Shown here: in pieces, positions 48,701 to 62,089 of the stretch
Numbering within the stretch: the first letter of the stretch is position 1
How the letters are laid out: each line of letters starts with the position of its first letter
Source of the DNA: Terriglobia bacterium
GTDB lineage: Bacteria; Acidobacteriota; Terriglobia; JAJPHL01
NCBI GenBank assembly: GCA_021325275.1
Contig: JAJPHL010000006.1
Location: 1 to 64,000, forward strand
Reading direction: 5' to 3'
DNA: 64,000 nucleotides
Notes under the pieces: model-generated
Told to the model about the DNA's origin: nothing
The model's input: the letters and a program-made list of their open reading frames with translations, nothing else
Database searches by the model: none
Position numbers and translations under genes: made by a program

Positions 48701-50199
48701 GGGATGCGCATGATGCAGGTGTCTTCCTTGAGGCTTGTGAAAGCCGCGCCACCGGCGCAGTCGGCAGCCGTACCTAAATAATAGCCGGCGGGATAATGCA
48801 GTTTTTCAGGTTTGCCAGGCCGCCAGTGCCATTGATCGGATTCCCGCGCGTGAACTTCGGCGTTCGTCAGCACGAAGTAATCCGCGGTGGCGCCCCAGTA
48901 GATCTTGTCGCGCGTGTACAGCGGCAGTTGAGCGGCGAAAGGCAGCGGGCAGAAGATCACCGAGTCAGGCGGAGTGTTGGCGTTCAACCACGCCACGGTC
49001 GCGGGCATCATCACGTCGAGAGGATACAGCTTCGGCGCCTGATGCTGGGCGCGAAACGCGGAAATCGAGACGATTATGATGGCCGCCGCCGCGCCCAGCG
49101 TGAAGACCGCCGGCACAAGCTTTGGCATTTTTTCAGTTATGACGGCCGCGGCGAACATGGCCCACAGAGGAATCAGACAGTTCACCCAATGGTGCGATTG
49201 CATGTGGCGATTGGTCACCGCGTTTTGCACGGTGAAGAGCGTAGCCGCTGTGGCGAAGGGTCCGAGAAACGCCAACACGGCGCTACGCCGCAAGAACGCG
49301 AAGGCCAGTGCCAACGCGACCACGCCCGCGGCAAACACGGGCAGCGCAGGACTATCGTATGTGTCGGGCAAGCGCCCCGGCGTCAGTAACTCGCGGCGTT
49401 CGAGAGTGTCCTGAAACGCGGGATCGTTGCGGATGCGCACACTGTGCACGAAGTAGGGAATCGCGATGACCGTGGCGATGGCCAGCGCGGCCATCAGACG
49501 CGTCCGCTCGCCGCGCATCACAAACCATGCCGCGCCAGCCACGGCCGTGGTCCAGTAGAAGATCGGCGTGTAGAATAACAACCCGATCGCGATGCCGGCC
49601 ATCGCGACGTTCCACCAACCGCCTTTGCGCCGGACGCGATCAAGCGCCGCAATCGCCAGCAAGAAAAGCAAGACGTGCGCCGCGGGGCTCACCGCGCGAA
49701 AGTATCGCGGGAAATAAAACCAGTGCGGATCGAAAATCCGCACGACGCTGCGAGGATCGACGACCGTTGCAAGAATCGCCGCGAGCGCTCCGCCGGCGGC
49801 GCTGTTCCCCGCCGCGCTTGGCGCGGCTCTCGAAAAAAGACTTGCGCCGAGCATCGTAATCACCAATGCAATCACCGCCGGAAACGCGACGCGTGAAATC
49901 GCCACCACCGCCAGCGGCGAGAGCGCGGTGACGTGGGCGATCGCTGCCAGTGTTCGCTCCACCATCGACGGCAGGTAGACCACTGCGTCGTCGTGGCCGG
50001 CGAGAAACGGATTCCCAAGCGAAGCGCCGCGATTCGAATCGGCGCGATACGCCGCGGCCACCAGCGCCAAGTACTGACCTTCAGTGTAGTCGCTACCGAC
50101 AAGCGTCGATCCGCGCGCCGAGTACGCAACCGCCAGGGGAATCGCGTGCACGATGGCCGTCACCGCCACGGCGGTCATGATCCAACGATGGTGGGTCAT
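48697..50199 (-). CDS. polytopic membrane protein of unknown function (GT-C-like)
   Basis: 500 residues with about a dozen hydrophobic segments and a C-terminal soluble tail (PPDSVIFCPLPFAAQLPLYT, KIYWGATADYFVL). GSTLVGSDYTEGQYLALVAAAY after the first helix holds an acidic motif at the site expected for GT-C enzymes, and HMQSHHWVNCLIPLWAMFAA lies in a later loop. It may be an oligosaccharide or lipid-sugar transferase. ATG 50199 overlaps the stop of the large fusion gene (50196) by 4 bases; an earlier in-frame start would lie inside that gene. Cotranscribed with the similar gene downstream. Confidence 0.65.
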   Translation of the reverse strand: MTHHRWIMTAVAVTAIVHAIPLAVAYSARGSTLVGSDYTEGQYLALVAAAYRADSNRGASLGNPFLAGHDDAVVYLPSMVERTLAAIAHVTALSPLAVVAISRVAFPAVIALVITMLGASLFSRAAPSAAGNSAAGGALAAILATVVDPRSVVRIFDPHWFYFPRYFRAVSPAAHVLLFLLAIAALDRVRRKGGWWNVAMAGIAIGLLFYTPIFYWTTAVAGAAWFVMRGERTRLMAALAIATVIAIPYFVHSVRIRNDPAFQDTLERRELLTPGRLPDTYDSPALPVFAAGVVALALAFAFLRRSAVLAFLGPFATAATLFTVQNAVTNRHMQSHHWVNCLIPLWAMFAAAVITEKMPKLVPAVFTLGAAAAIIIVSISAFRAQHQAPKLYPLDVMMPATVAWLNANTPPDSVIFCPLPFAAQLPLYTRDKIYWGATADYFVLTNAEVHARESDQWHWRPGKPEKLHYPAGYYLGTAADCAGGAAFTSLKEDTCIMRIP

Positions 50200-53100
50200 T
50201 CTGCTCCCGAGAGACGCGCCGCCGTTTCTCGCATGGCCCGCAAGTCTAGTTTGCCGCTGCCGAGGTACGGCAAGGCTTCGACGTGAAAGAATTGCGTGCG
50301 CGCCGGCTTCCACAAATTCGGCAAGTCGCAATCGGCGAGTTTGTCGATCGTTTCCTTGGCTCGCTCTTCGGACAGCGTGTGCAAGACAACAAGACGTTCG
50401 CCTTTGCGCGAGTCCGGCACGCCCGCCACGACGAAACTTTGCTCGGTAATGCCGGCGAGTTCATGAAGCTTGTCTTCCACTTTGATGTGCGCGACCATCT
50501 CGCCGCCGATTTTGCTGAAGCGGCTCAGGCGGTCGGTGATCGCCAGGAACCCGTCCTCGTCGACGGTGGCGATGTCGCCGGTGATGTACCAGCCGTCGCG
50601 CAGCACTTCGGCGGTTTTTTCCGCGCGGCCCAGATATCCGCGCATCACGTTTGGTCCGCGCACCAGGAGCAATCCGGATTGACCCGGCGGCAGGGGCGGC
50701 GCGGCTAGAGGATCGCTCGATTCCGGATCGACGATGCGCACACTGACGCCCGGCAGCGGATGTCCGATGCGTCCGCGCTTCGCGCCCACTTGGCGGAATC
50801 CCGGCGCGCGATAGTCGTGCGTATTCACCGTGACGGCGGGTGAACACTCGGTGCAGCCATATGCTTCGAGCGGCCGAATCCCGAATGTTTCCTCGAAGGC
50901 GTTGGCCACGCGATCGGAAAGTTTTTCCGCGCCCACCAGGACGTATTGCAAGCTGCCGAAATCTTCCGGCGAGCAGCGCCGCGCGTATCCTTGAATGAAT
51001 GTCGGCGTGGCCAACATCACCGTGCACGCATATTTCGCGACCAGTCCGCCGATGACGCGTGCGTCCAGCGGATTGGGATGATAGACCACGCCCACGCCCA
51101 GCGACGCCGGCAGGCACAGCGTTCCGGTGAATCCAAAGGAGTGAAAAAACGGCAGCACGCCCATGATGCGATCGCTCGGGCCCAGGAAAAACGTTTGCGC
51201 GAGCTGTTCAATGTTCGATCCCACGTTGTAGTGCGAGAGCATCACGCCTTTGGGATCGCCGGTCGAGCCGCTCGAGAAAATTACGGTGGCGGTGTCGTCG
51301 AGTTCCACGCGTTTTCCACGCCCCAGCGATTTTTCGAGCCATTCCACAGGGAGAAGAAACGCCGCGAGCGCCGCGTTTAGGCGTTCGCCGGCGCCGGGGT
51401 TCGCACCGATTTCTTCGAGTAAGAGAATTTCGCCCGGCGGACGCACCGGTACCCGTTCCAGAAACGCCTTCGACGTGATGGTCGTGCGCAAATCGCACTG
51501 ACGTCCACACGCCTCAAGGATTTCGTTCGATGCCGTGTAATTCAAGTTCACCGGCGTCTTGCCCATCAGCATCGCCGCGAAATTCACGAGGGCGCCGCCC
51601 ATCGACGGCGGCAAGAGCACCCCGACCATGTCTTGATCTTTCCATTTCGGGCCCAGCCGCCGTGCTAACACGACGGCGCCGATCAGAGCCCGCCCGAACG
51701 TCATGTGCTCGGTGCGGAAGTCGGCGGCGAAAAATCGCCGCGGATGACGGCGTGCGGTGCGCACGAACGCGCGATGGAGCGTCGACATGCGCGGTTTGCG
51801 ATGCGCGTACGCGCCGCTCTGCAGCTCCTGCACCGCTTGGCGCACTTCGAACGCCGTCGCGGTCGAGGGCATCGGTTTCCCGAACGTTACGGTGACGGGA
51901 TACGGCACCGTGCGCGGCATTTTCCAGAGGAAGCGCCCCTTCTCATAGCTGAAAATGCTGCCCCACACGCCGTCGAGATTCACGGGAACAATCGGCGCGT
52001 CGACGCCTTTCATGATGCGCTCGAAGCCGCGGCGGAACGGCAGCAGTTGTCCGATCCGTGTGATCTGTCCTTCGGCGAAGATGCAGACCACGCGTCCTTG
52101 CTGGATCATTTCGGTGGCCGAGCGCAGCGAATGGATCATGTCGCGCGGACGCAGCGTGGAGGAAATCGGAATGCACTTGAGAATTTTCGCCCATGGCTTC
52201 ACCAGCGGATGATCGTAGATGTCCTTGAAGATGATAAAACGCACGCGGCGGTCGGTCGAGGCGATCAAGAGCAATCCATCGACGAGAGATAGATGATTGC
52301 TTACGAACAGCGCGCCGCCGCGCGAGGGAATGTTCTCGCGTCCCTCGATGTGAATGCGATAAATCGTGTGCGTCAAGATCCACAACAGGAAACGCAGCAG
52401 CGCGTCAGGCAGGAGCGTAAGCAAGTACCCGGTCACCGCGACCGTCATGGCGGCGGCGGTGAGAAAAATGTATTGCGACGGGAAGTGCAATTGCACCGTC
52501 AGCACGTAAAACACGCCCGACGCCAGACCGATGCCGACGAAGCTGAGCAAATTTGCCGCGGCGATCACGCCGCCTTTTTCGTTTTCATCGGGACGATGCT
52601 GCACCAGCGCCATGATCGGCACGATGAAGAAGCCGGCGAAAAATCCGATGCCCGCGAGCAGCGCGACCACTTGGATGTACGACAATCCCGGCAGAGCCAT
52701 CGCGGCTCCCAGTGCGGTGATGCCGAGCGATCCAAGCGGCACCAGGCCATATTCGATCTTACCGCCAGAAAGATAACCCGCGCCGACACTGCCGAGTCCA
52801 ATCGCCAGCGCGAGCGTGGCATTCAAATAGGAAATTTGCGTCGCGCCGATATGCAGGACGTCTTGGCTGTAGATCGGAATGTTTTGCTGCAGCAGCGCGC
52901 CGAGAAACCAGAAATACGTGTTGCCCGCGACGGCGAGTTTCAGCACTTCGTCTTTTTGGACTACGCGCAAGCGGCCCCACAAATCGCCGAGGAAATTTGC
53001 GCGAAACGGTTTCGCGGGATCGGCGGCGGGAACGCGCGTCACCGCGAGGCTCATGAGCAGTCCCGTGCCGGCGAGCGCGACCAGGATGATGCCGGGAACT

Positions 53101-53630
53101 TCCTGACGTCCCTTGAACGTGTCGAAGAGCCATCCGCCCGCGACCGTTCCCAGGATGATCGCGACGAACGTACCGAGTTCGATCACGCCGTTTCCCCACG
53201 ACAGCAATTCTTCGGGCAGCAATTCCGGCAGCACGCCGTATTTCGATGGTCCGAAGATGGCGCTGTGAACGCTCATCAGGAACATCGCGGCGATGGCCAG
53301 CGCCAAGTGATTCGTGGCGAGTCCCGCCAAGGCGACGAGCATCACCGGAATTTCAAAAATCTTCACGCCGATCATCACCGAGCGCTTGGAAAAGCGGTCG
53401 GCAAGGAATCCGCCGAACATGGAGAACAGGATGAACGGCACGGCGAAGAGCGCGCCGACAATCGAGACCAGGGTGTTGCGCTTCTCAACGGAGAGCGCCA
53501 TTGACAGCACCCAAAACTGAATGAGCCACTTGAGCGCGTTGTCGCTGAACGCGCCTTGGAATTGCGTAACGATCAGGCTCCAGAATCCGCGCCGCCAGTC
53601 GCGCGATTTGGCGGAGCCGCTAGAGATCAT
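50196..53630 (-). CDS. MFS transporter-acyltransferase-acyl-ACP synthetase fusion (LplT-Aas type)
   Basis: 1144 residues in three domains. Residues about 1-410 are a 12-helix MFS flippase like LplT (FSDNALKWLIQFWVLSMALS, IFGPSKYGVLPELLPEELLSWGNG). About 420-630 is a PlsC acyltransferase (FVSNHLSLVDGLLLIAS with its HxxxxD, FAEGQITRIGQ). About 640-1144 is an AMP-dependent acyl-ACP synthetase (TVIFSSGSTGDPKGVMLSH, GVLPFFHSFGFTGTL, YGCTECSPAV, LLVRGPNVMRGYLGR). It imports or flips lysophospholipids and reacylates them. ATG 53630 is the likely start; a 19-residue longer version is in frame. It shares a 104-base divergent region with the Cas10-like gene. Confidence 0.93.
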   Translation of the reverse strand: MISSGSAKSRDWRRGFWSLIVTQFQGAFSDNALKWLIQFWVLSMALSVEKRNTLVSIVGALFAVPFILFSMFGGFLADRFSKRSVMIGVKIFEIPVMLVALAGLATNHLALAIAAMFLMSVHSAIFGPSKYGVLPELLPEELLSWGNGVIELGTFVAIILGTVAGGWLFDTFKGRQEVPGIILVALAGTGLLMSLAVTRVPAADPAKPFRANFLGDLWGRLRVVQKDEVLKLAVAGNTYFWFLGALLQQNIPIYSQDVLHIGATQISYLNATLALAIGLGSVGAGYLSGGKIEYGLVPLGSLGITALGAAMALPGLSYIQVVALLAGIGFFAGFFIVPIMALVQHRPDENEKGGVIAAANLLSFVGIGLASGVFYVLTVQLHFPSQYIFLTAAAMTVAVTGYLLTLLPDALLRFLLWILTHTIYRIHIEGRENIPSRGGALFVSNHLSLVDGLLLIASTDRRVRFIIFKDIYDHPLVKPWAKILKCIPISSTLRPRDMIHSLRSATEMIQQGRVVCIFAEGQITRIGQLLPFRRGFERIMKGVDAPIVPVNLDGVWGSIFSYEKGRFLWKMPRTVPYPVTVTFGKPMPSTATAFEVRQAVQELQSGAYAHRKPRMSTLHRAFVRTARRHPRRFFAADFRTEHMTFGRALIGAVVLARRLGPKWKDQDMVGVLLPPSMGGALVNFAAMLMGKTPVNLNYTASNEILEACGRQCDLRTTITSKAFLERVPVRPPGEILLLEEIGANPGAGERLNAALAAFLLPVEWLEKSLGRGKRVELDDTATVIFSSGSTGDPKGVMLSHYNVGSNIEQLAQTFFLGPSDRIMGVLPFFHSFGFTGTLCLPASLGVGVVYHPNPLDARVIGGLVAKYACTVMLATPTFIQGYARRCSPEDFGSLQYVLVGAEKLSDRVANAFEETFGIRPLEAYGCTECSPAVTVNTHDYRAPGFRQVGAKRGRIGHPLPGVSVRIVDPESSDPLAAPPLPPGQSGLLLVRGPNVMRGYLGRAEKTAEVLRDGWYITGDIATVDEDGFLAITDRLSRFSKIGGEMVAHIKVEDKLHELAGITEQSFVVAGVPDSRKGERLVVLHTLSEERAKETIDKLADCDLPNLWKPARTQFFHVEALPYLGSGKLDLRAMRETAARLSGAE

Positions 53631-53734
53631 GGGAGGTTTATAGCACAAGGAACGCCCCGTTTGCCCGATGGCGTCGTAATCACGCACTGCCTAGCTGACC
53701 GACTGGTTCCCGAAATTGATATAAACTAACTTCC

Positions 53735-55198
53735 TTGGCTTTGACGATCCATTCGGGCGATCTAGCCGTTCTTGGGGAATTTTCGGGAGTTCGGCCCTAC
53801 GTCACAAAACCCCTGCCGGGCGCGGGCGACGCGCGACGGTTGCGCGCGCGATCCTTTCGCGTTCGCGCATTCCTGCGGCTGATCGCGCGCGAGATTCGCC
53901 AACGCTCCGGCGAAGGTGCGGGCATTTCTCCACTGGGCGAAGAATCGTTCGAAGCCACTCGATTTCGTTTGGCCGGCCGCGCGGCCGAAGGCGCGGAGCG
54001 GGCCATCGCGTTTTATCAAGCCGATCTCGACCGTTGGTCGCTCGATGTAATGGGCGGCGAGTTGGTGTTTCATTTGGCGGCCGTGCGCGCTACCGAAGAC
54101 GGCGCGTTTCCAGACGCCGCGCTCGAACAAAAGATCGCGTTGCGGCGCATGCACCCCCTCGAAGGCGCGCTCGTATCTGGTGCGCGATGGAATACCGCGA
54201 CGTTTCGCTCAGGTTGGGCCGATCCGCACGCCAAGAAATGCGCCGGCTGCGGCGCGACCGTCGCCGATGTTTCCGGAGCTTCCGGCGTCGATGGCACGCA
54301 GCTTTGCGACCGCTGTATTGACGATGACGAGCTCGGTCGCATCTTGCCGGCTTCGAACTCGGCGCAATGGGTCGATCCCGATCACGCTACGATTCATGTG
54401 CCCGGTCAAGGACTGGCACTGAACGCCTCTACGATCGCGGCCGGCGGCGTCGATCTCGACTTAACGACCGGGGACTGGCCGGTGTTCCGCCATCTTCCGC
54501 ACGGTGATTTCTCGGGTCTGGCCCAGCGCGCGCCGGGATCGCGCAAGATGTTGGCGTATGTCGCGATTCATTCCGCGGCGGAGGCCCCGCTGCAACGTTT
54601 CCCCGACGTGTTTCCCATCGAGAACGACGGCGCGCTGATCGCCGCGGGACCGTGGGATCAACTGCTGCGATTCGCGCTGGAGCTCGGCGGCGGCGCGCCC
54701 GAGTCACGCGCGGCGATCACGCTCGAGCCGGCGGCAGCGCATGTCGATTCCGCCGTCGCACAGGTGCTCGGGCGTCTGCAGCAAACCGAAGCCGGGCGCG
54801 TGTGGCTTTTTAGCGAAAGCCTGGATTGGCCGTCGGCGAAAGATGCCGTGGATCGCGGCTTCGAGATGGCGCAATGGCTGAAAGAGGATAGAATGAGCGG
54901 TAGTGCTTTGCGGCGCATCGGCGAGGTGCATCGCTTAAGCAACGAAACCCGGACGGATTCGCAACAATGGAAGCTTCGTTCCCTGCCTATGCTGATTTGG
55001 CAGGCGCGCGGCGCAGACCGTTTGTTGCGCCGGCGGATTCTTCGCATGGCGGCCGATCCGGATTTGTGGCGCAACACAGGCTTGGCGACCGAGCTGGCTT
55101 TGCTGGCAGCTTCGCCGCGTGAATCAAACGCACGGGGTGCTCGATTCGGTCGGGCAACGAATGGTCAAGGAGATCCGGTGGAAGCCGGAGTTGAATGA
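53735..55198 (+). CDS. cas10: Cas10/Csm1-like protein without HD domain and with degenerate GGDD motif
   Basis: 487 residues, much shorter than the usual 750-900. It begins directly at what looks like the Palm1 segment of Cas10: HSGDLAVLGEFSGVRPYV then ARRLRARSFRVRAFL, so the N-terminal HD nuclease domain is absent. A zinc knuckle follows (C169, C172, C191, C194; KKCAGCG and LCDRC). The Palm2 part has LAYVAIHSAAEAP where active cyclases have a metal-binding DxD-like strand, and FPIENDGALIAAGPW where GGDD normally precedes LFLVGPW; GGDD reads as NDGA (297-300). A C-terminal helical D4-like region follows (SALRRIGEVHRLSN...RSLPMLIWQARG). TTG 53735 is the first possible start after an in-frame stop. 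Family call from motif layout and neighbours. Confidence 0.8.
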   Translation: MALTIHSGDLAVLGEFSGVRPYVTKPLPGAGDARRLRARSFRVRAFLRLIAREIRQRSGEGAGISPLGEESFEATRFRLAGRAAEGAERAIAFYQADLDRWSLDVMGGELVFHLAAVRATEDGAFPDAALEQKIALRRMHPLEGALVSGARWNTATFRSGWADPHAKKCAGCGATVADVSGASGVDGTQLCDRCIDDDELGRILPASNSAQWVDPDHATIHVPGQGLALNASTIAAGGVDLDLTTGDWPVFRHLPHGDFSGLAQRAPGSRKMLAYVAIHSAAEAPLQRFPDVFPIENDGALIAAGPWDQLLRFALELGGGAPESRAAITLEPAAAHVDSAVAQVLGRLQQTEAGRVWLFSESLDWPSAKDAVDRGFEMAQWLKEDRMSGSALRRIGEVHRLSNETRTDSQQWKLRSLPMLIWQARGADRLLRRRILRMAADPDLWRNTGLATELALLAASPRESNARGARFGRATNGQGDPVEAGVE

Positions 55199-56106
55199 TG
55201 GGTAGCTTTCAAGACGCAATGAAGAAGGCCGGCCTCTCTTCCGGCGATCCGGAAGCGCCGGAAACGTCCGCGCCGGACTCCGCGGCCGGTGAGGCCGCGG
55301 GCGGGGAATCGCGCGGCGCGGGCGAGGGTGGTGGCGAAAGAAAGCCGCATCGCGATCGTCCTCCCCGGCAGGATCGTCCACCGCGTCCTCCCCGCGAGGG
55401 CGCCGGCGATAAGCCCGCGGAAAAACTAGAGGACAAGGCGTGCGCAAAGTGCGGCACGATGTTTTCGCCGAAACACTCGAAACATCGCTTGTGTCCAAAG
55501 TGCGCTGACGAGCACTTTACGGCGGCGAAAGAAAAGAGTGCCGCTGACACTGCCAAACCGGCAGAAGGATCGGCGCCCGTGGCGCGACCGCCCAAGCGCG
55601 ACCGTCCGCCCCGTCAAGACCGTCCACCCCGCCCAGAACGCCCGCCGCAAGGCGAGCCGCACGCGCCGCGCGAGGGGCACCGAGAAAGCCGCGAACCTCG
55701 CGAAGCCCCGGCCGGATTTCCGCAGGACTATTTGCGCAGCGGCTACTTCGCAGGCGGCTCAGGTAGCGTCCTGCGCGATCAAGTGCTCGACTCTTGGGCC
55801 CGCAACGTTGGCGCTTTGCTCGTCCAGCGGGGGCTGGCGGCCAATCAGATGCGCATGTTTTATGCGCACGTAAAGCGCGCCGAGGCGTCGGCGAAAGCCG
55901 GTCGCGATTTCAATTTGGTGCGCGAGGAACTCATGAAGATGCGGCCCGTGGCGGCCGCGCGGCAAGGACGCCGGCTCATCCCCGGCGAATTCGCGGATTT
56001 TCTCGATCGCAACCTGGAACTGGTGCGCGACGCCGCGTCGCTGCGCGCGTTCGCTGAACACTTTCAGGCCGTGGCCGGATATACCGCGGGAAGACTCAGA
56101 AAGTAA
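55195..56106 (+). CDS. csm2: Csm2-like small subunit with zinc-ribbon and Arg/Pro-rich N-terminal extension
   Basis: 303 residues; ordinary Csm2 is about 120-150. The last 130 residues match Csm2: SWARNVGALLVQRGLAANQMR, MFYAHVKRAEASA, LVREELMKMRPVAAARQGRR and FAEHFQAVAGYTAG. Before this lie an acidic Gly/Ala linker, a four-cysteine zinc ribbon (C83, C86, C100, C103; CAKCGTMFSPKHSKHRLCPKC) and two copies of DRPPRQDRPPRP (54-65 and 136-147), a basic Arg/Pro repeat likely to bind nucleic acid. Csm2 lines the crRNA-target filament in type III-A complexes. Its ATG overlaps the cas10-like stop by 4 bases. Confidence 0.8.
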   Translation: MMGSFQDAMKKAGLSSGDPEAPETSAPDSAAGEAAGGESRGAGEGGGERKPHRDRPPRQDRPPRPPREGAGDKPAEKLEDKACAKCGTMFSPKHSKHRLCPKCADEHFTAAKEKSAADTAKPAEGSAPVARPPKRDRPPRQDRPPRPERPPQGEPHAPREGHRESREPREAPAGFPQDYLRSGYFAGGSGSVLRDQVLDSWARNVGALLVQRGLAANQMRMFYAHVKRAEASAKAGRDFNLVREELMKMRPVAAARQGRRLIPGEFADFLDRNLELVRDAASLRAFAEHFQAVAGYTAGRLRK

Positions 56107-56126
56107 TCGGGAGACGGGGAAGAGAT

Positions 56127-56789
56127 ATGAAGCGAATGATCAGTTGTGGAAAGCTTACCGGCACGATCCAATCGCAGGGACTGCGCATCGGCGGCGTCTC
56201 GCAAAATCTGGAAATCGGCAGCCAGTTGGATTTGACCGCCCTGCGCGATCCGATTTCCGGGCGTCCGTATATTCCGGGGTCGTCGCTGAAGGGGAGCTTG
56301 CGCGCGATGCTCGAACGGATCGAGGGAAAAAGCTCCGGCCGCGGCGAACCGTGCGGCTGCGGCGATCGCGATTGCAAGATTTGTGTGATCTTCGGCGCGC
56401 ACAAGAATCCGCAGCCGGCGTCGTCGCCCACCCGCATCGTAGTGCGCGACGCGCATCTCACCAAGGATTCGGCGGAAGCGTTCGACAACGCGCGCAAGGA
56501 AGGCGGCGTCTTCTTCGAGGAGAAGGCCGAAAACCTCGTGCTGCGCGATAGCGGACTCGCCAAGGAACCGCGCTGGCAGGAGCGGGTGTGGTCGGCGTCG
56601 TTCGACCTGGACATTCTGCTGCACATCTATGAGGGCGACAATCCCCAGTCGCTGATGCGCTACGTGCGCCAGGGCCTGGGATTGATCCAGGAGACCGGCG
56701 CGCTCGGCGCGGGCGGCAGCCGCGGCTCGGGTCAAGTGAAGTTCGACGTGCAGGAAAGCTGGCTCGAACTGGAAAAGATCAGCGTTTAA
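56127..56789 (+). CDS. csm3: Csm3-like Cas7 backbone subunit
   Basis: 220 residues, the usual Csm3 size. The RAMP signature is clear: LRIGGVSQNLEIGSQLDLTA, then RPYIPGSSLKGSLRAMLERI, and a C-terminal Gly-rich loop LGAGGSRGSGQVKF. D35 in QLDLTALRDP sits at the position of the target-RNA-cleaving aspartate of Csm3 (D33 in the Streptococcus thermophilus protein), six residues before the shared DP. A zinc-binding-like insert, EPCGCGDRDCKICVIFGA, follows. GGGGAAGAGAT precedes the ATG. It should form the crRNA-binding helical filament and probably cuts bound RNA every 6 bases. Confidence 0.88.
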   Translation: MKRMISCGKLTGTIQSQGLRIGGVSQNLEIGSQLDLTALRDPISGRPYIPGSSLKGSLRAMLERIEGKSSGRGEPCGCGDRDCKICVIFGAHKNPQPASSPTRIVVRDAHLTKDSAEAFDNARKEGGVFFEEKAENLVLRDSGLAKEPRWQERVWSASFDLDILLHIYEGDNPQSLMRYVRQGLGLIQETGALGAGGSRGSGQVKFDVQESWLELEKISV

Positions 56790-56824
56790 CACTAGGGCAG
56801 ATCATCTAGAGAAGATCACCGCGC

Positions 56825-57667
56825 ATGAACGTCTACCGTTATCGCCTGCATCCCGCTGCGGGCGCTCGCTTCGCAACTCAGCTTGAGGCGGACAGCTTGT
56901 TCGGAGCTGTCGCGTGGGAAGTTGTGCGCCGCTCGGGCGAAGCGGATCTCACGAAGTTGCTGGATCGCTTTCGTAAGGGTGAACCGCCGTTCTTGCTTTC
57001 GAACGCATTTCCCGGCGATCTGTTGGCGCGTCCTTTGGTGTCGGGTGAAGCAGGATGGATCACCCGCGACGAATTCACCGCGATCCGTGAGGGTCGCGCG
57101 CCGGCGTCCAGCGCCAATGCGCCGGCGCTACGCGAAATCCGCGAACTGCACTCGGGATCCGGCGAAGTTTTCGAAACGCGCGATTGGACTTTCGCGAACG
57201 GCCAAAACTATTTTTCAATTTACGCGCGCGTCGCGCCGGAATGGGTCGCGCCGCTCGGAAAATTGCTCGCCGGCGCCGGGGAGCGCGGAATCGGCGCGCG
57301 TCGCGGCATGGGTCGCGGACAGTTCACGCTGGAAGGAGCCCCGGAAGCGTGTCCATGGCTCGATCCGCTGCCGTTTGAAAGCGGATTCGTAACGCTCAGC
57401 AATTTTGTGCCGCAGGACACCGATCCCACCCGCGGGCGCTGGGCGATCGCGGTAAAGTATCCGAAGTTAGCCGGGGAGCCCGGGGGACGTTCGGGCCAAG
57501 ACTCCAATCCTCTAAAAGGGCGCCTGCTGCAACTGCGAGCGGGATCCTGCTTTCAGTGTCCCGGACGGCCGCGTCGCTGGTATGGATCGATGATTCCGGT
57601 CCAGGCGGCGCTGCATTATGGCTTGGCGCTGGCCATAGGTATCAAATGGCCCAATGAACCTGCGTAG
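56825..57667 (+). CDS. csm4: Csm4-like Cas5-type subunit
   Basis: 280 residues. The N-terminal RAMP half has ATQLEADSLFGAVAWEVV and GEPPFLLSNAFPGDLL, typical of Csm4, with a Gly-rich RRGMGRGQFTLEG loop in the middle. A second RAMP-like half follows (SNFVPQDTDPTRGRWAIAV, LRAGSCFQCPGRPRRWYGS, ALHYGLALAIGIKWP). Csm4 caps the complex at the 5' handle of the crRNA and binds Cas10. It is the last gene of the unit; no csm5 or cas6 follows before the response regulator. The gap to csm3 is 35 bases. Confidence 0.85.
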   Translation: MNVYRYRLHPAAGARFATQLEADSLFGAVAWEVVRRSGEADLTKLLDRFRKGEPPFLLSNAFPGDLLARPLVSGEAGWITRDEFTAIREGRAPASSANAPALREIRELHSGSGEVFETRDWTFANGQNYFSIYARVAPEWVAPLGKLLAGAGERGIGARRGMGRGQFTLEGAPEACPWLDPLPFESGFVTLSNFVPQDTDPTRGRWAIAVKYPKLAGEPGGRSGQDSNPLKGRLLQLRAGSCFQCPGRPRRWYGSMIPVQAALHYGLALAIGIKWPNEPA

Positions 57668-58433: not shown

Positions 58434-60245
58434 ATGAAGTATTGCTGGGCCATCTTCGTCGCTGTGGCCTTCGCGCGCGGGCAAGCTGCCATTCCTTTCT
58501 CTCAGTCGTCGCCGATTCTTTCTCCCATGGTCTCAGGCTCTGGCAGCAGCGTGCTTTTCGGAACGTTGTTTTCGACGAGCGGTGTTCCAGGCAGCGGCTA
58601 CAACGTTTGCACTGCGAACGCCGATGGTTCCGGTTTCCGCCAACTCACCAACCTCGCGCCGGCGCAGCGTGTCGAAGATATTTCTATGACCTCCGACGGT
58701 CGCTGGGCGGCGTACACGGTGAATCCGGGCAGCGGTCATGAGGAAGTGCATCTTCTGAATGTCGCGGCGGCACCATCGGTCGGAAGCGATCGCACATTGT
58801 ATAGCGACCCTCAAGGCTGCGTCCTGCCCGTGGCCGTTGGCTTCGGGTACTCCTTGACGTGCCTGCAAACGCCGCATCTTTCCGACGACGGGTCCGCTGT
58901 GTTGTTCGCGCAAGCAAACACGCCCACGTTTTTGGTGGCGAAAAACGATGGCTCGCCGGCCGTGAACTTGCCCGTTTACAGCGGCACGCTGGCGGCGTCG
59001 AGCAAGCGCGTCATTAGCAGCGCGGGACAGGTCGTGTTCACTTCGACCACGGCTTCCGGTGTTTACATCGGCGACGATGTCTATCTGATGAATCTGGACG
59101 GCTCGAACATTCGCAAGATTACACAGTTCAACAGCCGCGCCGACTCGCCGCAAGAAGCAACCATCAGCGCGGACGGTTCGATGATCGCGTTTACCATGCT
59201 CGCCGGTGGCGGAATCAACACGCTCTACACGATTGGTTCCGACGGATATAACTTGAGTGCCGTGGCCGCAGGCTATTACGTGTCTTCCCCCAGCCTGAGT
59301 GCCGATGGTTCGCTGCTGTCTTCCATCGACACGGGACAGGTCGTGTTGCTGAAACTGGGTCCCCCGCAAGTGCGGACGGTGCTGACGCATTTTCAATATC
59401 CCATCGCGGGGGATGCAACCATCAGCGACGATGGAAGCCGCGTGGCATTCGCCAAAGTGCTCAGCATGATTCATCCCGGCATCATTGGCCTTTCCGGCCT
59501 CGTCAGTCTTAATGGTCCAACGGGAGTCTATACCGTGTCGACGGCAACAGGAAGCCCTCAAAGTGTCTACGCGCCGCGCTACGTGTATCCGCCGACGTTG
59601 GCGGTCGCCGGTTCGCTAGCGATCTCCTCCGGCGTCAACTTGACTCTGGATACGTTTGGGTCTGCTTCCTCGTTGCCCTTGCCGCAAACTCTGGCTGGCG
59701 TTTCTCTTACCGTTGGTGGACGCGCTGCACCGTTGTTCTCGGTGAATCCATATCAGATCGCGTATCAGATTCCACCCGACGCAACGATCGGAAACGATGC
59801 GCTTCAGCCGCAATTTGCCGACGGAGTCACGGCCGCTGCGAGTACGGCGAGCGTCGCGGCGCTTATGCCAAGCGTATTGGCATTGATCGGAACCGAGGCG
59901 GCTGTTTTTCACGGTAATACCGGCATTGCTGTCGACGCCACGCATCCCGCCACAGTCGGCGAAGTGTTGGTCATGTACGCGTCCGGTCTCGGGCCCACGA
60001 ATCCAACCGTTCCGGCGGGTTCGGCCGCGCCTGCGAATCCTCCGGCGACGACCGTGAATCAACCGACTGTAACCATCGGTTCCGCGCAAGCGTCAGTGCA
60101 ATTTTCGGGACTGGCGCCGGGTTTTGTGGGTTTGTATCAGGTCAATTTTGTTTTGCCTTTGGGCTTGAATGCGGGGCCTCAGCCATTGGCCCTCTCGATC
60201 GCGGGGCAATCGTTTGGCAGCGGACCCTTTATCAACGTGAAGTGA
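58434..60245 (+). CDS. exported PD40-type propeller protein with TIGR03437 domain, copy 1
   Basis: 603 residues: a short signal peptide (MKYCWAIFVAVAFARGQ), then repeats with TolB/PD40 character (ANADGSGFRQLT, MTSDGRWAAYTVNPG, ISADGSMIAFTM, ISDDGSRVAFAKV) forming a beta-propeller, and the acidobacterial TIGR03437 C-terminal domain (GEVLVMYASGLGPTNPTVPAG, VQFSGLAPGFVGLYQVNFVLP). It is exported; the role is unknown. It starts 6 bases after the response regulator stop and is followed in tandem by a close duplicate. Confidence 0.85.
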   Translation: MKYCWAIFVAVAFARGQAAIPFSQSSPILSPMVSGSGSSVLFGTLFSTSGVPGSGYNVCTANADGSGFRQLTNLAPAQRVEDISMTSDGRWAAYTVNPGSGHEEVHLLNVAAAPSVGSDRTLYSDPQGCVLPVAVGFGYSLTCLQTPHLSDDGSAVLFAQANTPTFLVAKNDGSPAVNLPVYSGTLAASSKRVISSAGQVVFTSTTASGVYIGDDVYLMNLDGSNIRKITQFNSRADSPQEATISADGSMIAFTMLAGGGINTLYTIGSDGYNLSAVAAGYYVSSPSLSADGSLLSSIDTGQVVLLKLGPPQVRTVLTHFQYPIAGDATISDDGSRVAFAKVLSMIHPGIIGLSGLVSLNGPTGVYTVSTATGSPQSVYAPRYVYPPTLAVAGSLAISSGVNLTLDTFGSASSLPLPQTLAGVSLTVGGRAAPLFSVNPYQIAYQIPPDATIGNDALQPQFADGVTAAASTASVAALMPSVLALIGTEAAVFHGNTGIAVDATHPATVGEVLVMYASGLGPTNPTVPAGSAAPANPPATTVNQPTVTIGSAQASVQFSGLAPGFVGLYQVNFVLPLGLNAGPQPLALSIAGQSFGSGPFINVK

Positions 60246-60256
60246 AGGAGTTTTCC

Positions 60257-62089
60257 ATGAAGTATTGCTGGGCCATTTTCGTCGCTGTGGCCTTCGCGCA
60301 CGGGCAAGGCTTTATCGCGGTCTCGATCGCGCCTCCCCCGGTTCTTCCTCCTGCCATCTCCGGATCGGGCGGCAGCCTGCTTTTCGGATCGTCGTTTTCG
60401 ACCAGCGGCGCTCCCGGAAGCGGTTACAACGTTTGCACCGCTAACTCCGACGGTTCCGGTTTCCGCCAACTCACCGCCGCGGCCAGCGCGGCGTCGACAC
60501 AGAGTGTCGAGGCGGTTGCGCTGACTTCCGACGGCCGCTGGGCCGCGTACACTCTCAATCCCGGCACGATCCACGAGGAAGTGCATTTTCTGAATGTGGC
60601 TGCGGCGCCGTCCGTGGGAAGCGACCGCATGTTGTATAGCGATCCGCAAGGCTGCCTTCTGCCGTTGGCCGTCTGCTTCGGGTGTACCTACACCTGCCTG
60701 CGCACACCGCATATTTCCGACGACGGGTCGGCGGTGTTGTTTGCGCAAGCGAACACGCCGTCGTTTCTGGTAGCGAAAACCGACGGCTCCGCCTTGGCGA
60801 AACTGCCGGTGTACTCCGGCGTCTTGGCGGGGTCGAGCAAACGCGCAATCAGCAGCACGGGACAAGTGGTGTTCACTTCAACCGCACTTTCCGCCACGGC
60901 GTCGTCGGCGGGTCAAGTGTACACAATGAACCTGGACGGCTCGAACATCCGCAAGGTCACGCAGTTCACCGACCCCGCTTTCTTGCCGCAGGAGGCAACC
61001 ATCAGCGCGGACGGCTCCATGATCGCTTTCACGCTGCCTAACGCTGCTGGAACGAGCACCATCTTCACGATTCGCTCCAACGGATACGACTTTAGCGCCG
61101 TGGCGGCCGGCAACGTTTACTCGCCGAGTCTCAGCGGCGATGGATCGCTGTTGGCCTACATCGACTCGGGGCAAGTCGTGTTGTTGAAGCTTGGTCCTCC
61201 GCAACTTCGGACTTGGTTGACGAAGGATCAGTACACGACTGCCTACGATGCGACGATCAGCGACGACGGTAGCCGGGTGGCATTTTCCTCGGCCCCCGCC
61301 CTACCAACCTTCCTGGCGGTTGGCGGTGTTGCCATCGGAACTTTTGTCTACGGCGGTTATGGTGCGACGGCCGTCCGCACCGTTTCTACAAGCACGTCGG
61401 TCCTGCAAACGGTCTATGCGCCCCGCTACGTGTATCCGCCGACGTCGGCCGTGGCCGGTTCGCTGGCGTATTCCCCTGGAATCAATTTGACCAACGATGC
61501 AGGAGCGACGGCGTCCTCGCTCCCGTTACCGCAAACTCTTGCCGGCGTGTCACTCACGATCGGCGGACGCGCTGCGCCGCTGACGTCCGTTGATTCGAGT
61601 CACATCAGCTACCAAGTGCCGCCCGACGCGCCGATCGGAAACGACACGCTGCAACCGAAATTCGCCGACGGAGTTACGGCCGCCCCGGCGACGGTGACCG
61701 TCGCCGCGATCCTGCCCAGCGTGTTGACGCTGACTCTAGGTGCGCAGGCGGTCTTTCACGGCAACACCGGCACGGCGGTCGACTCCGAGCATCCCGCAAC
61801 CGCCGGCGAAGTGTTAGTGATGTACGCATCGGGACTCGGTCCCGCGACTCCGGCGGTGCCGGCGGGCACGGCGGCCCCTGCGAATCCTCCCACGATAACT
61901 GTGAATCAGCCGAAGATTGCCGTCGGCACCGCAACGGCGCCGGTGCAGTTTTCGGGACTCGCGCCGGGGCTCGTCGGCGTGTATCAAATCAACTTCGTCG
62001 TGCCTGCTGGACTGAAACCCGGCGCCCAGTCGCTGAGTCTATCAGTCGCCGGCCAATCTGCCGTCCCGGCCGCGCTCTACATCCAATAA
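60257..62089 (+). CDS. exported PD40-type propeller protein with TIGR03437 domain, copy 2
   Basis: 610 residues, closely similar to the preceding gene from the signal peptide (MKYCWAIFVAVAFAHGQG) through the TIGR03437 tail, including YNVCTANSDGSGFRQLT and SSKRAISSTGQVVFTST. The start is ATG 60257 with AAGGAG at 60246-60251; an in-frame GTG at 60242 would place five residues before the conserved signal peptide. The pair arose by tandem duplication, and differences are concentrated in loops of the propeller. Function unknown. Confidence 0.85.
   Translation: MKYCWAIFVAVAFAHGQGFIAVSIAPPPVLPPAISGSGGSLLFGSSFSTSGAPGSGYNVCTANSDGSGFRQLTAAASAASTQSVEAVALTSDGRWAAYTLNPGTIHEEVHFLNVAAAPSVGSDRMLYSDPQGCLLPLAVCFGCTYTCLRTPHISDDGSAVLFAQANTPSFLVAKTDGSALAKLPVYSGVLAGSSKRAISSTGQVVFTSTALSATASSAGQVYTMNLDGSNIRKVTQFTDPAFLPQEATISADGSMIAFTLPNAAGTSTIFTIRSNGYDFSAVAAGNVYSPSLSGDGSLLAYIDSGQVVLLKLGPPQLRTWLTKDQYTTAYDATISDDGSRVAFSSAPALPTFLAVGGVAIGTFVYGGYGATAVRTVSTSTSVLQTVYAPRYVYPPTSAVAGSLAYSPGINLTNDAGATASSLPLPQTLAGVSLTIGGRAAPLTSVDSSHISYQVPPDAPIGNDTLQPKFADGVTAAPATVTVAAILPSVLTLTLGAQAVFHGNTGTAVDSEHPATAGEVLVMYASGLGPATPAVPAGTAAPANPPTITVNQPKIAVGTATAPVQFSGLAPGLVGVYQINFVVPAGLKPGAQSLSLSVAGQSAVPAALYIQ

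Follow-up and report, generated by a model that had tools for sequence, protein, structure and literature searches.

The principal output of type III CRISPR systems is generally taken to be HD nuclease or cyclase activity. Type III-A, among the closest known systems, combines Csm2, Csm3 and Csm4 homologues with Cas10, and this combination is present in the locus described here. The HD domain of Cas10 is present in about 65% of III-A systems (PMC11229360). In Staphylococcus epidermidis, Csm5 is needed for the maturation of CRISPR RNA (crRNA): loss of csm5 abolishes maturation, and the remaining complex still forms (PMC9762709). The locus lies in a stretch of 64,000 nucleotides from Terriglobia bacterium (phylum Acidobacteriota; assembly GCA_021325275.1, contig JAJPHL010000006.1, positions 1 to 64,000 of the forward strand), the whole of which is called the window below. 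It consists of four genes (53735-57667), and the reading favoured here, with moderate confidence, is that they encode a stripped Csm complex kept under selection, which would function without signalling and have at most RNA binding and slicing as its output.

The four open reading frames are consecutive on the + strand in a tight operon arrangement, in the order Cas10/Csm1 homologue, Csm2, Csm3, Csm4 (Table 1); the first two overlap by 4 bases, and gaps of 20 and 35 bases follow. A preliminary description, made from the letters of the window, had placed a minimal effector locus here and had called the genes Cas10-like, Csm2-like, Csm3 and Csm4, and both the frames and the family calls were borne out. 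Three products score over the cut-offs of their profiles: Csm2 (PF03750, 42.5 bits against 24.8; 1.2e-10), Csm3 (TIGR02582, 139.7 bits against 90; 1.2e-40) and Csm4 (TIGR01903, 71 bits against 55, 1e-19; PADLOC Csm4, 3.9e-37). Csm3 also matched 21 solved RAMP chains, nearly all of them Csm3; it is a single-domain protein and Csm2 is a separate gene, with no Cas7-11i fusion. The first product matched TIGR02578 under its cut-off (52.7 bits against 170; 3e-14) and the PADLOC Cas10 profile (3e-9). Compared with the PDB, its AlphaFold model (11-row alignment; predicted local distance difference test score 76.9; predicted template modelling score 0.76) matches Csm1 chains best (Foldseek E 1.8e-17; Z 23.3 and root-mean-square deviation 3.8 over 420 residues). 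The assignment of the first gene as a Cas10/Csm1 homologue holds on TIGR02578 taken together with this predicted structure. Because homologous gene sets occur in seven other genomes, a chance grouping is ruled out. No RNA families or tRNAs were found when the observed stretch was checked.

The losses in the Cas10 homologue go further than the gene content of the operon indicates. Residues 6-461 of the model align with Csm1 residues 246-752, the protein begins at about Csm1 position 234-246, and the first third of Csm1, which bears the HD nuclease, is missing. Since the open frame has only 492 codons, an HD domain is not hidden upstream by a wrong start call. In the alignment, ENDGA stands where the relatives have the GGDD cyclase motif (YGGGDD), and about 45 further residues are deleted in Palm2. 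The window Cas10 is thus without an HD domain, and its Palm2 is predicted to be cyclase-dead. With the HD domain and GGDD gone, neither DNA cutting by Cas10 nor cyclic oligoadenylate is expected. The word minimal in the preliminary description understates the loss, in that Cas10 also lacks both active sites. On the RNA-slicing side, Csm3 has retained Asp35, the catalytic aspartate through which Csm3 proteins cut target RNA. PF03750 covers the C-terminal 100 residues of Csm2, the N-terminal extension is proline/arginine-rich, and a zinc-ribbon-like CxxC pair precedes Csm2 in four of the six clade members aligned (the window, G001, G387 and G183).

Relatives were searched for among 399 genomes of the class, with the Cas10-like protein as the query, and among 396 from the phylum, for which a Csm4 alignment was used. 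Eight genomes, the window included, carry the Cas10-Csm2-Csm3-Csm4 set without HD, and csm5 is absent from seven of them, that is, wherever the contig continues beyond csm4. All other Csm loci compared have csm5 directly after csm4 if the sequence extends that far; in one of them (G432), counted in the csm5-bearing set, csm5 overlaps csm4. A contig scan with Csm3 alone gave one locus, in Tepidanaerobacter, which is csm5-bearing. A Csm3 tree built from 23 rows places all eight csm5-less loci on one side of a branch (support 99/97; 100% of 200 bootstrap trees), and the Csm4 tree agrees with this grouping (91/93). In the Csm3 tree the sister of the window (99/96) is G001, the one further genome of its taxonomic order in the sample. 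GGDD is kept in six of the seven relatives (G387, G183, G092, G331, G477 and G643) and lost only in the window and G001. The survey for the same four-gene order proposed in the preliminary description thus places the module as the reduced tip of a clade, not as a lone oddity. As judged from these sequences, the window operon is the most reduced twig of the clade and derives from a type III-A variant that already lacked Csm5 and HD. Carriage by a plasmid or phage was rejected, as Csm4 was not found in plasmids, nor Csm3 in phages.

Most members of this clade are part of fuller systems. In G331 the GGDD-bearing Cas10 and Csm2-4 are accompanied by cas6, cas1, cas2, a reverse transcriptase and two arrays, of 21 and 15 repeats; in G387 the module is found with cas6, an array of 11 repeats, TIR-SAVED and a CARF-HEPN-mCpol protein; Cas1 adjoins the module in G183, a CARF-HEPN (Csx1-like) gene occurs in G092, and G643 has a 13-repeat array. 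The arrays of G387, G331 and G643 have 37-nt repeats that end in ATTGAAAC. Complexes without Csm5 and HD are therefore compatible with complete systems in this phylum, and the presence of GGDD, arrays, cas6, reverse transcriptase-cas1-cas2 or effectors in the clade mates suggests that the complex works without Csm5. At L012:2167-4839, TIR-SAVED and CARF-HEPN-mCpol genes stand beside a csm5-less GGDD Cas10, so that two signalling proteins, one with a mini-polymerase domain of its own, are found together. The branch is apparently undescribed, no account of it having been found in the literature searched. A large 2024 survey dropped Cas10 proteins under 500 amino acids (PMC11229360); the window Cas10, at 487, falls below this filter, and such systems may be under-counted.

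The genome assembly comprises 75 contigs (6.86 Mb, 97.6% complete). No array, csm5, cas6, cas1 or cas2 was found on the 125-kb contig that holds the operon (C7), no csm5 follows csm4, and no TTGAAAC that could mark a leftover repeat occurs within 53.0-58.5 kb. Over the whole genome, PF03787, a profile that scores known csm5 weakly, found the Csm3 of the operon as the single RAMP, so that neither another type III system nor a detectable csm5 is present. The preliminary description had reported the locus as free of csm5, adaptation genes, an array and a processing enzyme, and had asked for a search of the rest of the genome. The first three absences stand along the contig, and the wider search gave no type III-style array; the fourth stands for the locus but not for the genome, in which a Cas6 homologue is encoded on contig C16 (C16:80417-81415, L043:414-1415; PF10040, 8.6e-15). 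No array was found on that contig. The sole array found in the genome (L044 13900-14854) belongs to a type II locus on contig C24 (L044:13900-19502) with a Cas9 of 1116 amino acids, Cas1, Cas2 and 15 repeats (36-nt repeat GCTGGGGTTGGCCGAGAATCACCGCTCATGTACACT, 30-nt spacers), and the single Cas1 of the genome is part of this locus. A type I system was rejected as a guide source, there being neither a Cas3 over the cut-off nor a type I Cas1. On contig C73 (L188), a candidate array was rejected because it is a cysteine-rich protein repeat.

The main rival to a complex kept under selection is a dying relic, in which the array, adaptation genes and effectors were lost, then the cyclase, while what is left decays as functionless sequence, stop codons having not yet been acquired in the window. 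This is a realistic possibility, though less likely than the favoured reading. None of the four window frames is interrupted, even though the Csm3 proteins of the window and G001 are only 57% identical; in a neutral simulation about 5 stops had arisen at 0.05 substitutions per site, and 0/200 runs were stop-free. Asp35 and the zinc cysteines have likewise been kept over this long divergence, where neutral decay would give many stops. Codon comparison of the window with G001 shows constraint (proportions of nonsynonymous and synonymous differences, pN/pS, 0.32/0.60 for csm3 and 0.48/0.72 for cas10). The two Cas10 proteins both lack GGDD and share 'EN' at the motif, and the two loci are sisters in the Csm3 tree, so that the loss of GGDD probably preceded their split and the operon would have been kept long after signalling was lost.

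A number of observations weigh on the side of decay. The constraint is weaker than in a GGDD-bearing pair (0.33/0.80 for cas10 and 0.23/0.81 for csm3), and the loss of GGDD comes with the deletion in Palm2. In G001, csm4 (L014:1010-1611) is short by about 67 codons and out of frame, which could be decay to a pseudogene or an assembly fault; this genome has no intact match to Cas6 or Cas1, only a Cas6 fragment at a contig edge. No adaptation genes belong to the window operon, the only Cas1 being that of type II, and no fitting array was found: regularly spaced TTGAAAC or TGAAA[CG] gave one isolated match over the whole assembly and one in the control, and a direct array finder, covering about 2.0 of the 6.86 Mb (~29%), returned the Cas9 array only. 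The early, shared loss of GGDD is moreover an argument from parsimony. Two independent losses are possible, in which case the argument for selection reaches no further than the point at which the window itself lost GGDD.

If the operon is functional, its guides may come from elsewhere, though the searches of the assembled genome gave no array of type III style. One special case of the favoured reading is an ordinary type III system with a dead cyclase and with its array in an unassembled part of the genome, for example beyond the contig ends, and this we think unlikely. An array in the missing 2.4% of the genome or across a contig gap is possible, the unlinked Cas6 is present, several relatives have arrays near the operon, and in the majority of type III systems Cas6 is provided in trans (PMC12669027). 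However, the arrays of the relatives lie within a few kb of the effector and none occurs in 125 kb here, and the pattern searches of the whole assembly were negative.

A second special case, more doubtful still, is a domesticated complex: a long-kept, stand-alone RNA-guided RNA regulator whose guides would be cellular RNAs of non-CRISPR origin, perhaps trimmed by the orphan Cas6, and which would regulate the cell's own or mobile-element RNAs. In favour of this, the operon appears to be selected although no fitting array was found, and the orphan Cas6 is kept across the class. Its family occurs in 93/399 class genomes, 82 of which belong to a single family (f5); most of its genes lie apart from cas genes, and their neighbours are not conserved; a member adjoins the effector in G387 and stands alone in G092 and G331. 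The effector module, in contrast, is present in only 6/399, so that the retention of Cas6 needs another reason, and no guide RNA was identified. Because of this spread the unlinked Cas6 was rejected as proof of a partnership: it can supply processing, but its presence is no evidence of a link to the operon, and Csm modules, being far rarer, leave the retention of the Cas6 family unexplained. That the Csm complex borrows crRNAs from the Cas9 array, the sole array at hand, is very improbable, given a repeat without the end common to the clade arrays, no Cas6-type hairpin obvious by eye, and spacers that are short for type III.

The identities of the genes, their losses, their descent and the four open frames are matters of observation; from these and by analogy with solved Csm complexes we infer assembly of the complex, RNA slicing and the supply of guides. 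In the stripped complex favoured here, Csm4 together with what remains of Cas10 would cover the guide RNA at its 5' end and hold its 5' tag, Csm3 subunits would form the backbone along the guide, and Csm2 with its zinc-finger arm would provide a second filament. Once a target RNA had paired with the guide, Csm3 would use Asp35 to cleave it at regular intervals, and neither a cyclic oligoadenylate alarm nor DNA cutting by Cas10 would follow. Guides would be supplied in trans, either by an array that the assembly does not contain or as other RNAs, possibly cut by the unlinked Cas6. The complex that forms after csm5 loss in S. epidermidis (PMC9762709) fits a Csm5-less complex with untrimmed guides. 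A clade without Csm5 and HD, with a twig that has also lost the cyclase and in which no array of its own was found, allows the worth of a bare RNA-slicing core to be tested, and the window operon is well suited to asking what such a complex can do with no guides of its own.

Table 1. Features of the operon, in window positions.
Feature	Positions	Strand	Basis
Cas10/Csm1 homologue	53735..55198	+	487 aa, TTG start; TIGR02578, PADLOC Cas10, model compared with Csm1
Cys C169, C172, C191 and C194 of the Cas10 homologue, zinc-finger pattern	54239..54316	+	Invariant in six clade members aligned
ENDGA, site of the lost GGDD cyclase motif	54620..54634	+	Alignment with GGDD-bearing relatives; sister G001 has ENGSG
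Csm2 (Cas11) homologue	55195..56106	+	303 aa; PF03750 over residues 198-296
Zinc-ribbon-like CxxC...CxxC (C83, C86, C100, C103) fused N-terminally to Csm2	55441..55503	+	Alignment; zinc-ribbon profiles match weakly
Csm3 (Cas7) homologue	56127..56789	+	220 aa; TIGR02582, solved RAMP chains
Codon of Csm3 Asp35	56229..56231	+	Invariant in family, aligned with Asp of GGxDN motif
Csm4 (Cas5) homologue	56825..57667	+	280 aa; TIGR01903, PADLOC Csm4

Two neighbouring regions of the window deserve mention. On the opposite strand, 50196-53687 encodes a protein of 1163 amino acids that reads as a fusion of transporter, acyltransferase and AMP-ligase, and its start lies about 50 bases from that of Cas10. 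Downstream, 58434-60245 and 60242-62089 encode two tandem, similar proteins of 603 and 615 amino acids, evidently a duplication.

Among described systems, subtype III-G shares with the window operon a dead cyclase, the lack of an adaptation module and of an array at the locus, and crRNAs presumed to act in trans (PMC12669027). It is Sulfolobales-specific, and it has Csx26, a seemingly active HD domain and a Cas7 without the catalytic Asp (PMC12669027), whereas the window operon has lost HD, kept the Asp of Cas7 and has Csm2. All four of its genes are assigned to other subunits, which leaves none for Csx26, at which no profile search was aimed. Reductive evolution of type III with loss of signalling is common to III-H, III-I and type VII (PMC12669027). 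III-H keeps HD and replaces the C-terminus of Cas10, III-I has a Cas7-11i fusion and type VII has Cas14, and the separate Csm2-Csm3-Csm4 set of the window operon is found in none of them (PMC12669027). Variant III-A2 is likewise a III-A variant short of one effector subunit, but it lacks Cas11/Csm2 and keeps the cyclase (PMC12669027), whereas the window operon has Csm2 and misses Csm5. With type III-A proper the operon shares Cas10/Csm1, Csm2, Csm3 and Csm4 in canonical order, the slicer Asp of Csm3 and the Csm1 fold; it differs in having no csm5, HD, GGDD, local array or adaptation genes, and in the zinc-finger arm of Csm2. The csm5-less relatives (G387, G183, G092, G331, G477 and G643) agree with the operon in gene set and order, in lacking HD and, as far as their contigs reach, csm5, and in their Csm3 clade; these relatives, however, keep GGDD, and various members have arrays, cas6, reverse transcriptase-cas1-cas2, CARF-HEPN or TIR-SAVED. 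The operon is a new reduced variant of type III and not a new category.

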